From positions 1 through 43,791 of the IMG/VR virus record IMGVR_UViG_3300005288_000021: a stretch of 43,791 bases of DNA; one strand, given 5' to 3'. Under the pieces are notes generated by a model, which did no database searches, was not told the origin of the DNA, and saw nothing but the letters and a program-made list of their open reading frames with translations. Origin of the DNA: a virus. Position numbers and translations under genes: made by a program. Below, in pieces: positions 23,896 through 29,586 of the stretch (position 1 is its first letter; every line of letters begins with the position of its first letter).

Positions 23896-25292
23896 GCTGC
23901 TTCTCCTTCGATTGTTTTGTAGCCGCGTTCTTTGAGCGCAGCCATGAGAATGTCTTGGACCTCGCGCTTGCTGTGCAGGCGCTCCAAGACCAGTTCGTCG
24001 ATCGTGTCCTTCGCCATGATCATGTGCATGAACACGGGCCGCTTGAAGCCGGCCTGCAACTGGCGGGTAGGCCCGATGCGTTCGATGGCCTGCAAGTAGT
24101 TTTCCAGCGACCACGAGTAGCCGAAGAACACCATGATGTTCGTGTGGTACTGAAGACCATCGACCCCGTGGCCCATCGAAGCTGGGTGGCCGAACCAGAT
24201 ACGCCCCTCGCCGGCCTGTGCTTTCTCCAGCGCACCTTTCTGCGACAGGTCAATGCCATCCGGGAATCGCTTCTTGAGACGCGCCAAATCGCTCTTGAAG
24301 TTGTACAGGCACAGTATCGGCATACCGGCGGCTTCCTCGACGATCTCCTCGAGCGCTTCCAGCTTCTCGTTATGCACCACTTCCCACGCTTCCCCGCCTT
24401 CCAGGTACATGGCGCCGTTCGCTACCTGCATCAGCTTCATAGACTTGGCCGCAGCGTTCAGAGCCTCAATCTGCGTACCGCTCTCCAGCTCCAGGAAGAA
24501 CTGCTTCTCCATCTGCTTGTACATCACCTGAACCGAAGGCGGCAGGTCGACCAATATCCGGTTGATGATGGGCTCTTCCAGCGCGAACCAGTCGGCCGCG
24601 TCGATCGTGATGCACACGTCTTTAAGCGCTGCCTGGATCTCGCCTTGCGCTTGGTCGGTCGCCTCTACACCGAACCCGGTATGCGAAGCGCGAAACCATC
24701 GTTGCTTGAACGCGTCGAAGGTTCGCCCAAGGCGGTCGCCCTTATCGACGAACCACATTTGCCCCCACAGATCCTGTAGGCCGTTAGGACTGGGCGTACC
24801 GGTCAGCAGGATGATGCGTTTGATCTTGGTATGCGCGACCCGGGCAAGTGCCTTGGCGCGCTGCGTGCCCTGCCGTAACCGAAAGCCTTTCAACTTGGTG
24901 GCCTCATCCGCTACGACGGTCTTGAAGGGCCACCGGTCGCCCAACTCCTCGACCAGCCATGGTAATTGCTCGAAGTTGGTCGTGTAGATATCCGCTGGAA
25001 TGCGTAACGCGGCGCGGCGTTCTTTCAGGCTGCCGGTGACAACGACAACGCGCAGGTGCTTAAGGTGGTTCCACTTGCGCACCTCGTTCGGCCAGGTGGT
25101 TCGCGCAACGCGCAGAGGCGCAACGATGAGCGCGGGGTAAACGTCCTCTACGAAGGTCAGGTCTTCGAGCGCCGATAAAGTGGCGCCGGTCTTCCCGGTT
25201 CCCGGGCTAGACCAGACGGCGCAACGCTTATTGCCGACGATGAAGCCGCCGATCAGTTCCTGATAGCGGCGAGGTATGAAGTCAATTGCCAT
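23892..25292 (-). CDS. SNF2-type DEAD/DEAH-box helicase
   Basis: 466 aa. Walker A is AVWSSPGTGKTGATLSAL (residues 25-42), Walker B is TVVADEATKLKG, and RIILLTGTPSPNGLQDLWGQ is motif III. The C-terminal RecA-like domain contains ILCLYNFKSDLARLKKRFPD and QAIERIGPTRQLQAGFKRPV (motif VI area). Such phage SNF2-like helicases remodel or unwind DNA at replication or recombination sites. Its ATG overlaps the stop of the overprinted frame at 25292 (TAATG), not the stop of the methyltransferase frame. Confidence 0.93.
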   Translation of the reverse strand: MAIDFIPRRYQELIGGFIVGNKRCAVWSSPGTGKTGATLSALEDLTFVEDVYPALIVAPLRVARTTWPNEVRKWNHLKHLRVVVVTGSLKERRAALRIPADIYTTNFEQLPWLVEELGDRWPFKTVVADEATKLKGFRLRQGTQRAKALARVAHTKIKRIILLTGTPSPNGLQDLWGQMWFVDKGDRLGRTFDAFKQRWFRASHTGFGVEATDQAQGEIQAALKDVCITIDAADWFALEEPIINRILVDLPPSVQVMYKQMEKQFFLELESGTQIEALNAAAKSMKLMQVANGAMYLEGGEAWEVVHNEKLEALEEIVEEAAGMPILCLYNFKSDLARLKKRFPDGIDLSQKGALEKAQAGEGRIWFGHPASMGHGVDGLQYHTNIMVFFGYSWSLENYLQAIERIGPTRQLQAGFKRPVFMHMIMAKDTIDELVLERLHSKREVQDILMAALKERGYKTIEGEAA

Positions 25293-26203
25293 TACACCAA
25301 ATCTCCATACAAATATTCGTCAGCAATATCACGCCAGGTACGCTGCGATGAATTCGCGCGCCGCTTCAGCGTTGATAGCGTTTCCGTAGGCGCGCAGTCG
25401 TCCCACTCGACCGGAAGCCCCATTAACCAGCGGGAATGTGCCGGGTTCAACCGGCCGCCACTTTCCATCCCGGCATCCGAGCCAGTCAGAAGCTCGCCAG
25501 AATCCGTTAACCGGGCCGGCTGACATAGCGTTACCTGACGTGGTAGATCCCTCGGATTCGAACCGTCCCCCGCGCTGTTCCTGTAATCCCGAACTACCGA
25601 CGTATGCCAACCCGAGCAAACCGCTACCGTCTTGCGGCTGCTGTCGTTGTTCCCCGCTGCGTTGTTCCCGTTCTGTGCCGGCGTTCCAGCCATAGGGGTC
25701 GGCCATCCGGCCAGGGCCACGATTTGGTTGAGCGGCCTCCCCGTATCCCACGGGCGTGAGTCCTTCACACCCCGATTCGCGTCCGCGGCGGTAACTGTCG
25801 GCCACCCAGAACAATCGGTCTCGGATGTGCGGCGCACCGACGCCCGCAGACGGGAACGGGATGGCCCCGAAGGCGTATTCCATGGCTTCCATGTCAGCGT
25901 GTACAAGGTCGACCCAAGGCTCGACAGCCTTACTTGCAACCTGCTCTCCAAAGATGACTGAAGGTCTGCACTGCTTGATGATCCAGGCAAAAGTTGGCCA
26001 AAGGTGTCTTGGGTCCGCAAACCCAGCTCCAGCGCCTGCCGAGCTGAAAGGCTGACATGGGCAGCTACCGGTCCAAACTGGTCGATCATCGGGCCATCCA
26101 GCTTTGCGCAAAGCGAGACTCCAGACACCGACTCCGGCGAAGAAGTGGCACTGGGTGAAACCGGCAAGGTCTGCAGGGGTAACATCTTCGACAGATCGTT
26201 CAT
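25292..26203 (-). CDS. Long second reading frame overprinted on the methyltransferase
   Basis: 303 aa in another frame, almost wholly inside the C5-methyltransferase gene. Start ATG 26203 follows GGAG by 6 nt (MNDLSKMLPLQTLPVSPSAT). Conspicuous patterns are LSARQALELGLRTQDTFGQ, STLYTLTWKPWNTPSG, repeated GWPT units and the end NPAHSRWLMGLPVEWDDCAP. I recall similar products annotated as hypothetical proteins beside phage methyltransferases, but cannot check this here. Its stop forms a TAATG overlap with the helicase start, as real genes in this operon do, whereas the methyltransferase frame ends 37 nt earlier. It may be a real overlapping gene or a by-product of high-GC codon use. No function is known. 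Confidence 0.45.
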   Translation of the reverse strand: MNDLSKMLPLQTLPVSPSATSSPESVSGVSLCAKLDGPMIDQFGPVAAHVSLSARQALELGLRTQDTFGQLLPGSSSSADLQSSLESRLQVRLSSLGSTLYTLTWKPWNTPSGPSRSRLRASVRRTSETDCSGWPTVTAADANRGVKDSRPWDTGRPLNQIVALAGWPTPMAGTPAQNGNNAAGNNDSSRKTVAVCSGWHTSVVRDYRNSAGDGSNPRDLPRQVTLCQPARLTDSGELLTGSDAGMESGGRLNPAHSRWLMGLPVEWDDCAPTETLSTLKRRANSSQRTWRDIADEYLYGDLV

Positions 26204-26294
26204 CAACAACTCCGGGCGCTATGTGCCCTTCGGCAATTAGGTTACGCAGCCACTGCGCCGCATAGGGGTCGAACTCGTTGTAGTAGGCCGCCAT
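25329..26294 (-). CDS. DNA C5-cytosine methyltransferase
   Basis: 321 aa. HFFAGVGVWSLALRKAGW (residues 50-67) is motif I; WTGSCPCQPFSSAG contains the catalytic Cys80 of motif IV; VIFGEQVASK is motif VI with Gln where Asn of ENV is usual; RDRLFWVA is motif VIII; GRLRAYGNAINAEAAREFI is motif X. A variable target-recognition stretch lies between about 185 and 260. It would methylate phage DNA to escape host restriction. The start ATG overlaps the stop of the VRR-NUC gene (TGATG). A second long frame runs through most of it. Confidence 0.93.
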   Translation of the reverse strand: MAAYYNEFDPYAAQWLRNLIAEGHIAPGVVDERSVEDVTPADLAGFTQCHFFAGVGVWSLALRKAGWPDDRPVWTGSCPCQPFSSAGAGAGFADPRHLWPTFAWIIKQCRPSVIFGEQVASKAVEPWVDLVHADMEAMEYAFGAIPFPSAGVGAPHIRDRLFWVADSYRRGRESGCEGLTPVGYGEAAQPNRGPGRMADPYGWNAGTEREQRSGEQRQQPQDGSGLLGLAYVGSSGLQEQRGGRFESEGSTTSGNAMSAGPVNGFWRASDWLGCRDGKWRPVEPGTFPLVNGASGRVGRLRAYGNAINAEAAREFIAAYLA

Positions 26295-27501: not shown

Positions 27502-27530
27502 AGCTTATGCAAGATTCGACTTGTAGTCAA
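27502..27530 (-). promoter_or_regulatory. Leftward sigma70-type promoter with operator-like inverted repeat
   Basis: On the minus strand: TTGACT (27530-27525), 17-nt spacer, TAAGCT (27507-27502). The spacer contains TACAA, 8 nt, TTGCA, one mismatch from the perfect repeat at 23393-23410. The first 11 bases (TTGACTACAAG) are identical in the two promoters. The boxes overlap the last codons of the polymerase gene by a few bases. Confidence 0.58.
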
Positions 27531-28519
27531 CCTTTCCTGTAGCGATACGCTTCGAAGCCGGCCGCGGCGAGGGGTAGGCCTTCTGTCCAGTCGCAACCGG
27601 CTGACATCAGTTCGGCCAGGTGTTCGTGCGTGTAATCGTCGGTATCCGGCGCTTCGCTGATGATCTCGTCGTGGACGGTTAACACAATTTCGTAACCGGC
27701 GGATTCTATGGGTTTCATCGAGTAGGCGAGGACATCGCGCGCCGCCGCTTGGCACATATTTTCACAGAGCTTCCCCGAATATGTGCGCAACCTCTCCCAT
27801 TTGCGGGAATATTGATTGATACCCATAAAGGTGATCTGACCGTCATCCTCGACACGCGGGGATGGGTAGCAGAGATACCGTCCGGAAGGCAACATTACGC
27901 GGAGCCAGGCGCCATCGCGGCGAATCTTATGACGGCGGCAGGTGTAGGTTTGGCCCGGGTTGTTAATCGCCGTCCTGCAGCTATTCTCGATATCCTTCCA
28001 ATACGTCGAGGTGTTGGGATGCGCCTCGCGCCACAGACGCTTAAAGCTATCGCAGACGATGAACGCGCGATCACTCAAACCGTATTGGCTTTTACCCTGG
28101 CCGAGTTGCCATTCCAGGAAACTCGACGCTTCGTCGAGGGTGCTCTTAGGGATCGCGTCGATCGCCCGTTCGGCCATGGCTTCCAAGTCGATATTGAACG
28201 CCAAGGAGAATGTTATAAAGGCGCCTACCCCACCGGCGTACCCGAGCGCCAATTCCATCGTTTTACCGATCTGCCGCATGTCCTTATCGACGTCTGCAGG
28301 GTTAATCCCGAACGCTTTGGCGTAGGCCAATTTGTAGAGGTCGAAACCCCGGCCGGCGTCGAAGTCACGGAACGCCTGGAGTTTCCATTCTTCCCCGGCC
28401 AGCCATGCGAGCACTCGACCCTCAATATTGCTGAGGTCGGCGATCACAAATTTTTTGCCCTTGGGCGCGATGAACACTCCGCGCACAGCGCTTGAGCATT
28501 TTTCCATTACCGTACTCAT
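27527..28519 (-). CDS. DNA polymerase family A, palm/fingers part
   Basis: 330 aa containing the polymerase core: motif A FVIADLSNIEGRVLAWLAG (metal ligand D28), motif B MRQIGKTMELALGYAGGVGA (residues 81-100) and motif C EIVLTVHDEIISE (D284). It lacks the exonuclease and the first part of the polymerase domain, which are in the gene before it. The two frames meet at an ATGA overlap. Together they would make a 686-residue enzyme, the usual length of single-chain phage family A polymerases. It could work as a two-subunit enzyme, be joined by frameshifting, or reflect a frame error. Confidence 0.92.
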   Translation of the reverse strand: MSTVMEKCSSAVRGVFIAPKGKKFVIADLSNIEGRVLAWLAGEEWKLQAFRDFDAGRGFDLYKLAYAKAFGINPADVDKDMRQIGKTMELALGYAGGVGAFITFSLAFNIDLEAMAERAIDAIPKSTLDEASSFLEWQLGQGKSQYGLSDRAFIVCDSFKRLWREAHPNTSTYWKDIENSCRTAINNPGQTYTCRRHKIRRDGAWLRVMLPSGRYLCYPSPRVEDDGQITFMGINQYSRKWERLRTYSGKLCENMCQAAARDVLAYSMKPIESAGYEIVLTVHDEIISEAPDTDDYTHEHLAELMSAGCDWTEGLPLAAAGFEAYRYRKG

Positions 28520-29586
28520 AGCAAGTCCTCAGCGTCATTCAGAAGCTCTTCGATTGCGCGGTCTACGCCTTCAGGAGAAAGCGTACTCCTGCTGAGATTC
28601 TGCGGTTGTAGAAGGCGACCCGCCCACCGCCCCGTGCGCAATGCCCCACAAAACGCAAGAAGCCCCCTCAGCCTGCCGTCGGCACTAACGCCGTTCAGAA
28701 CACGTTTGTACTTCGACACACTGGTTTTTGACGCTTGAAGTCTGACGGCCAGCAGTTCGCGCAACTCCACCGGTAGATCCGGATCATCGATGCGACGCTC
28801 CAGCGTACTGATCTGAAGGTCAGGTAAGCCGACGCCGTAAGCTTCCAGGATATGCTCCAGCATCTTGTCGCGCTGGTTGGCACTGGTCACGGCGCCATCG
28901 GTCAAACGCGCTGCATCGGCGGCGTGGATCACCTGAGCACGATCCGAAGCGCGGATCGCAGCGTGCGCCAAGTCCAGGTCCATCAGCACACCGCGTTCGT
29001 TGATCTTCTGGTCGAGGTGCCACAGTTCCAGTTCTGCGCCGCGGTAATTCCAGCGGGGGAGCTTTTTGTAGATCTCGCGCATCGCCTCGATGTCAAGACC
29101 GCCATAGTCGCGAAAGCGTTGCCACTCTATCGGGTGCGTTGCTTTCGTGGCCCGGCGTATTTTGCGACCCTTCGGTTGAGGTTTGCAGAATAACGAGATC
29201 CATGTCCGCCCTTCCTTGTCCTTAGCCTTATCGGTCGCGACGCCAAGAATGGAACATAGAGTCCCGAGTGAACCCGGCAAAGAGTGCGCCATGGCGCAGA
29301 CCATGGTGTCGAAAACGCGTTCCACAGGAAGGCTAATACCGTTGTGGGCCATAACCGTCCGATCAAACGCCGAATTGTGGATAACAATTTCATAATCTGG
29401 ATCCTCTAAAACAGTGAGCAAGTCGCTTATATCTTCATCCCCATCGCGAATGATTACTTCCCCATCGCCGACCGCCCACTGCCACATGATGATTTCGGCG
29501 CCTTCTGCGTAACGGTGCGTCCCGTTGTTGATCGGCGTTTCGCAGAAGGTTTCCGTGTCGAGGAAAATGCATTTGTCGAGGTTCAT
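28516..29586 (-). CDS. DNA polymerase family A, exonuclease and thumb part
   Basis: 356 aa. CIFLDTETF (D10, E12) is Exo motif I of the 3'-5' proofreading domain, IVIHNSAFDRTVMAHNGI is motif II, and FRDYGGLDIEAMREIYK is motif III. The C-terminal 170 residues continue into the polymerase domain: QINERGVLMD-like start (KINERGVLMDLDLAHAAIRA) and GALRTGRWAGRLLQPQNLSR, the segment before the palm. It then stops at EELLNDAEDLL, exactly where other family A enzymes run on into the motif A region. Confidence 0.9.
   Translation of the reverse strand: MNLDKCIFLDTETFCETPINNGTHRYAEGAEIIMWQWAVGDGEVIIRDGDEDISDLLTVLEDPDYEIVIHNSAFDRTVMAHNGISLPVERVFDTMVCAMAHSLPGSLGTLCSILGVATDKAKDKEGRTWISLFCKPQPKGRKIRRATKATHPIEWQRFRDYGGLDIEAMREIYKKLPRWNYRGAELELWHLDQKINERGVLMDLDLAHAAIRASDRAQVIHAADAARLTDGAVTSANQRDKMLEHILEAYGVGLPDLQISTLERRIDDPDLPVELRELLAVRLQASKTSVSKYKRVLNGVSADGRLRGLLAFCGALRTGRWAGRLLQPQNLSRSTLSPEGVDRAIEELLNDAEDLL

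Follow-up and report, generated by a model that had tools for sequence, protein, structure and literature searches.

Two overlapping frames of a phage genome as the probable subunits of a single C5-cytosine DNA methyltransferase

Two long reading frames on one strand of a viral genome occupy almost the same DNA, which raises the question of whether the second frame is a gene and, if so, what its protein does. We analysed the window, meaning the whole stretch of 43,791 nucleotides, together with related loci from phages and bacteria. The two frames are called A, which resembles a methyltransferase, and B, which a preliminary description had listed as a protein of unknown function. In our reading, to which we give a probability of about 0.9, A and B would be the two subunits of one obligate C5-cytosine DNA methyltransferase of the M.EcoHK31I kind. 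The layout of the locus is as follows.

25329..26294, minus strand: frame A, putative catalytic (alpha-like) subunit of a C5-cytosine methyltransferase, 321 aa (PF00145, phrog_363, M.HhaI match)
25292..26203, minus strand: frame B, putative beta-like subunit with motif IX, 303 aa, read at +1 to A (phrog_31772, phrog_1008, selection tests, conservation)
26203..26214, minus strand: ribosome-binding site GGAG of B with a 6-nt spacer before the B ATG, CGGAGTTGTTGATG (sequence)

Frame A begins with the ATG at 26294, which overlaps the upstream endonuclease (nuclease-like) gene as TGATG, and the stop of A ends at 25329. Frame B runs from the ATG at 26203 to a stop at 25292, with nearly its whole length inside A, and the stop forms a TAATG overlap with the start of an SNF2-type helicase. 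The preliminary description had reported a ribosome site 6 nt before the B ATG, 303 open codons, the TAATG overlap, and repeated GWPT and SRWLMGLP patterns. GGAG is indeed present at that spacing, the open length and the overlap are borne out by the sequence, and GWPT was located at residues 133 and 166 and SRWLMGLP at residues 257-264 of B.

Frame A was compared with protein families and solved structures. It matched PF00145 (5.6e-11) and phrog_363 (4.3e-88), and the nearest solved enzyme was M.HhaI. The C5-methyltransferase motifs I, IV, VI, VIII and X were all found in the sequence of A at the following positions.

26127..26144, minus strand: motif I (FFAGVG)
26043..26060, minus strand: motif IV with the catalytic Cys (PCQPFS)
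25938..25949, minus strand: motif VI (GEQV in place of ENV, with the Glu kept)
25797..25832, minus strand: motif VIII region (PHIRDRLFWVAD)
25371..25400, minus strand: motif X (RLRAYGNAIN)

These matches and motifs indicate that A is a C5-cytosine methyltransferase.

We then examined whether frame B behaves as a gene. When the synonymous codons of A were shuffled (5000 trials), an open +1 frame of this length appeared in 0.5% of the permuted sequences and in 0.14% of those drawn by codon usage. Among 127 distinct relatives, the +1 frame had no interior stop in 124, whereas the +2 frame carried 11.2 stops on average and was never stop-free. Each of the 79 loci retrieved with only A as the query likewise had a +1 frame open over most of A; the script misplaced a few A starts in this set. 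B lay at +1 to A in 164 of 164 loci, as well as in 80 of 80 bacterial loci retrieved via B. Canonical C5 genes had no long +1 frame (37-145 codons). A stop-and-frame check of 243 phage and bacterial loci found both frames intact in 234, only B intact with A interrupted in six, only A intact with B interrupted in one, and both interrupted in two. Some of the six loci with an interrupted A may be sequencing errors. Four loci (L230, L210, L212 and L063) have an in-frame stop in A with B open, which could reflect decay or sequencing error. Pseudomonas phage PMG1 (L002, 2286-3204) has an intact B beside an A with a frameshift close to the A start, and only B is annotated, as a methyltransferase.

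The sequences of the relatives carried a second signal. The identity of B between relatives was 0.52-0.55, compared with 0.29 when A was held fixed and its codons were randomised. The third bases of shared four-fold codons were identical in 67% of cases in the overlap, against an expected 28-30% and against 34-37% in the non-overlapping start of A. When changes were counted by their effect in both frames over 1104 pairs, which are non-independent, dNN/dNS and dSN/dSS were 0.20 and 0.52 for B and 0.11 and 0.30 for A. The preliminary description had named codon-aware selection tests in both frames as a check and breaks in B beside an intact A as grounds for rejecting the gene; the ratios lie below 1 in both A and B, and such a break was seen at just 1 of the 243 loci. 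In the relatives, the ribosome site of B (AAAGGAG) is embedded in codons of A, and 58 of 124 relatives use the rare codon AGG for the Arg of A at this site, versus 7% in flanking genes. These patterns indicate that B is a second real gene and that both frames are under purifying selection.

Two readings that would deny B a protein product were weighed against these results. It is extremely improbable that B is untranslated and that its open frame is a by-product of the composition of A: long alternative frames are frequent in GC-rich genes and the shuffle of this single gene reaches only 0.1-0.5%, but the third-base constraint is limited to the overlap, the +1 frame and not the +2 frame stays open in diverged relatives, and B is kept at the six loci where A is broken. 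Constraint on the DNA or RNA, through structure or regulatory sites, instead of on protein B would not leave exactly one frame stop-free or preserve the residues of B and its start site. Rfam had no match in the region and no support for such constraint was found, and we give this reading next to no weight.

What protein B would be was approached through families, structure prediction and motif profiles. B matched phrog_31772 (2.1e-41) and phrog_1008 (3.2e-37 over residues 8-275, most of the protein), while it had no match in Pfam, NCBIfam or PADLOC and no sequence match in the PDB. The AlphaFold2 model of B alone was weak (pLDDT 59, with residues 76-123 as the confident part); it had no PDB match and says nothing on the fold. 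Two elements of B were delimited.

25814..26056, minus strand: N-terminal domain of B (approximate), predicted helix and beta hairpin (residues 76-123 of the model, conservation)
25403..25450, minus strand: motif IX of B (LNPAHSRWLMGLPVEW); the profile selects motif IX when run on canonical enzymes, and phrog_1008 spans the element in single-chain enzymes

The N-terminal domain is conserved, and ordinary C5 enzymes have no such domain. The invariant block LNPxxxxWLMGxPxxW of B resembles C5-methyltransferase motif IX, and its codons end 2 nt ahead of the motif X codons of A. With a profile made from 13 diverse B proteins, the true motif IX came out on top in seven of eight canonical C5 enzymes (Dcm, SPR and phage enzymes; combined p 6e-12), and M.HhaI reached 17.1 bits. 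When the same profile was applied to the corresponding zone in 130 A proteins, the median was -4.8 bits and the maximum 1.4, indicating that motif IX, standard in single-chain C5 enzymes, is absent from the A chain; A would therefore be one subunit and not a complete single-chain enzyme. A profile built from close B relatives alone could not pick out motif IX in the majority of canonical enzymes and was dropped for the diverse one, so the motif IX result depends on diverse B sequences chosen by eye. Since B carries motif IX, it would be the missing half of the methyltransferase and not a separate unknown. The preliminary description had proposed an overprinted gene tied to DNA modification: the genuine overlapping gene and the modification link hold, and the label of unknown does not. 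The word overprinted fits the layout, but the motif content of B is not that of an unrelated overprinted gene.

Between these conserved parts lies a region that is repetitive in both frames.

25598..25807, minus strand: dual-coded repeat modules, GWPT/GWPT/GWHT in B and VAD/MAD/LAY-type units in A

The third B repeat is GWHT, at residue 198. In the relatives, each gene has between 0 and 5 modules, read as GWPTP in B and as LADA/VADS-like units in A, for which the general form is (L/V/M)A(D/N/Y/H)(A/T/S/P). The modules sit where other C5 enzymes place target recognition, and therefore they may set specificity. We tentatively suggest, as a possibility that is rather less than even, that the variable middle is a modular recognition region in both frames, in which the gain or loss of one module alters both subunits and could switch specificity.

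Natural rearrangements of the two halves were found among the relatives. Actinophages (L277-L319) encode a single chain that combines the core with LPTP repeats, a motif IX reading EWMMGWPAGW and a motif X of the GNGVVP type, corresponding to the A core joined to the C-terminal half of B. In one of them (L281), the match to phrog_363 covers residues 1-430 of the chain and that to phrog_1008, which is the B family, covers residues 276-432 (6e-61); the predicted model of the chain overlaid residues 12-325 of M.HhaI (Z 20.7, 256 aligned, 4.2 A). In mycobacteriophage Melvin (L323, 1513-2608), the core gp81 and the B-like gp80 are adjacent genes, with gp80 at +1 to gp81; gp80 matched phrog_1008 at 1.7e-79 and bears motifs IX and X. 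Each is annotated as a DNA methylase, and they are two halves of one C5 methyltransferase. Diverged forms of B were also found in +1 within methyltransferases of mycobacteriophage Zerg and of a Lacticaseibacillus plasmid. Together, these sequences and the overlaid model make the link between B and the methyltransferase firm. One contig (L275) has the N-terminus of A and the C-terminus of B in one frame, and the cause is either an error in sequencing or an ongoing fusion. At the actinophage single-chain loci, the +1 frame is still open for about 106-199 codons, and in the two that were read (L273 and L281) this stretch carries the N-terminal domain of B, which may thus still be made on its own beside the single-chain enzyme.

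These forms bear on two further readings in which B is translated. B could be a real overlapping gene with a job of its own, for example in anti-restriction or in regulating the methyltransferase, and merely resemble motif IX. Its conserved N-terminal domain, foreign to ordinary C5 enzymes and persisting in +1 beside single-chain ones, speaks for this, but the in-frame fusion of the C-terminal half of B to the catalytic core in actinophages, the absence of motif IX from A and the failure to see B without a core in the loci sampled speak against it, and we hold it to be unlikely. The single-chain forms of other phages would also suit programmed frameshifting that joins A and B into one chain instead of two proteins; however, B starts at an ATG near the start of A with a ribosome site of its own, relatives keep this start region, and because B overlaps A almost fully a frameshift product would lose either the core or the B domain. 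We consider such joining exceedingly unlikely.

The two-subunit reading was then compared with known split enzymes. The small polypeptide of M.EcoHK31I (YGGCCR) has a mass of about 23 kDa, and Lee, Kam and Shaw (1995) are reported to have placed its coding sequence within the large gene, out of frame with it; in the window, the small gene is likewise read out of frame with the large one, at +1. The window pair differs in its phage setting and in the size of B (303 aa against about 23 kDa). In M.EcoHK31I, motifs I-VIII and X are on the large polypeptide and motif IX alone is on the small one (PMC3404938), and the window pair has the same division, with I-VIII and X but not IX in A and IX in B, a likeness in motif layout. 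No restriction enzyme was recognised among the neighbouring genes examined in the window. In M.AquI, two polypeptides likewise form one split C5 methyltransferase (PMC3404938), but the division falls between I-VIII and IX-X, similar to Melvin gp81 and gp80; a split of this type was rejected for the window pair because A keeps motif X, which is not on the small subunit. In phage ShiLan, as in the window, a second frame lies in a phage methylase gene, but there it is an out-of-frame HNH (PMC11855218), an inserted homing endonuclease and not a methyltransferase subunit. The two-frame, two-subunit layout is already known from one bacterial enzyme, and the window pair would be of that kind.

In the two-subunit reading, A would contribute motif X together with the core for AdoMet binding and catalysis (motifs I-VIII), and B would provide motif IX of the small domain, the GWPTP repeat region and its own N-terminal domain. 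The two proteins would bind each other to form one enzyme, neither would methylate DNA alone, and B would help to set the target sequence. The assembled enzyme would most likely methylate cytosine at a specific site, and the phage would use this mark against host restriction, probably protecting its own DNA.

We also surveyed how B is distributed and annotated. The B family was present in 17 of 299 genomes from the phylum of a Pseudomonas match, the chosen centre being counted among the 17. Among 33 loci picked by B alone, some of them from the same place, 32 had a C5 core and the remaining one, with four stops, looks like a chance match; no stand-alone B was found in this set. The window proteins are members of phrog_363 (A) and of phrog_1008 and phrog_31772 (B), families whose sole label is 'DNA methyltransferase', with the two-frame relation unstated. 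Both frames are annotated in some phage records (K1ind1, PhiXhv-5) and only A in others, such as N15 and epsilon15. The 'C-specific methylase' and 'Mte8-like protein' of K1ind1 are the same overlapping pair, the second annotated without function. The second half is very common in phages and mostly unannotated. The literature searched, which included few subscription papers, contained no description of the phage A/B pair, and the prevalence of the two-frame form in phages seems little recognised.

Same-strand dual coding over about 0.9 kb, conserved across phages and prophages from many bacteria, is unusual in both its length and its spread, and related forms occur in mycobacteriophages as well as in a Lacticaseibacillus element. 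In phage genomes usually a single frame is annotated, and a required enzyme subunit would therefore be missed; lone A genes may be cloned and then wrongly judged inactive. With its overlapping, split and fused forms, the series is a natural experiment in how overlapping genes originate and resolve.

Elsewhere in the window, the family A DNA polymerase (27527-29586, minus strand) consists of two ORFs with a 4-nt overlap. The ORF at 28516-29586 is the exonuclease part (phrog_17 positions 670-989) and the ORF at 27527-28519 is the polymerase part (phrog_17 positions 993-1232), which may represent a natural split or a frameshift.
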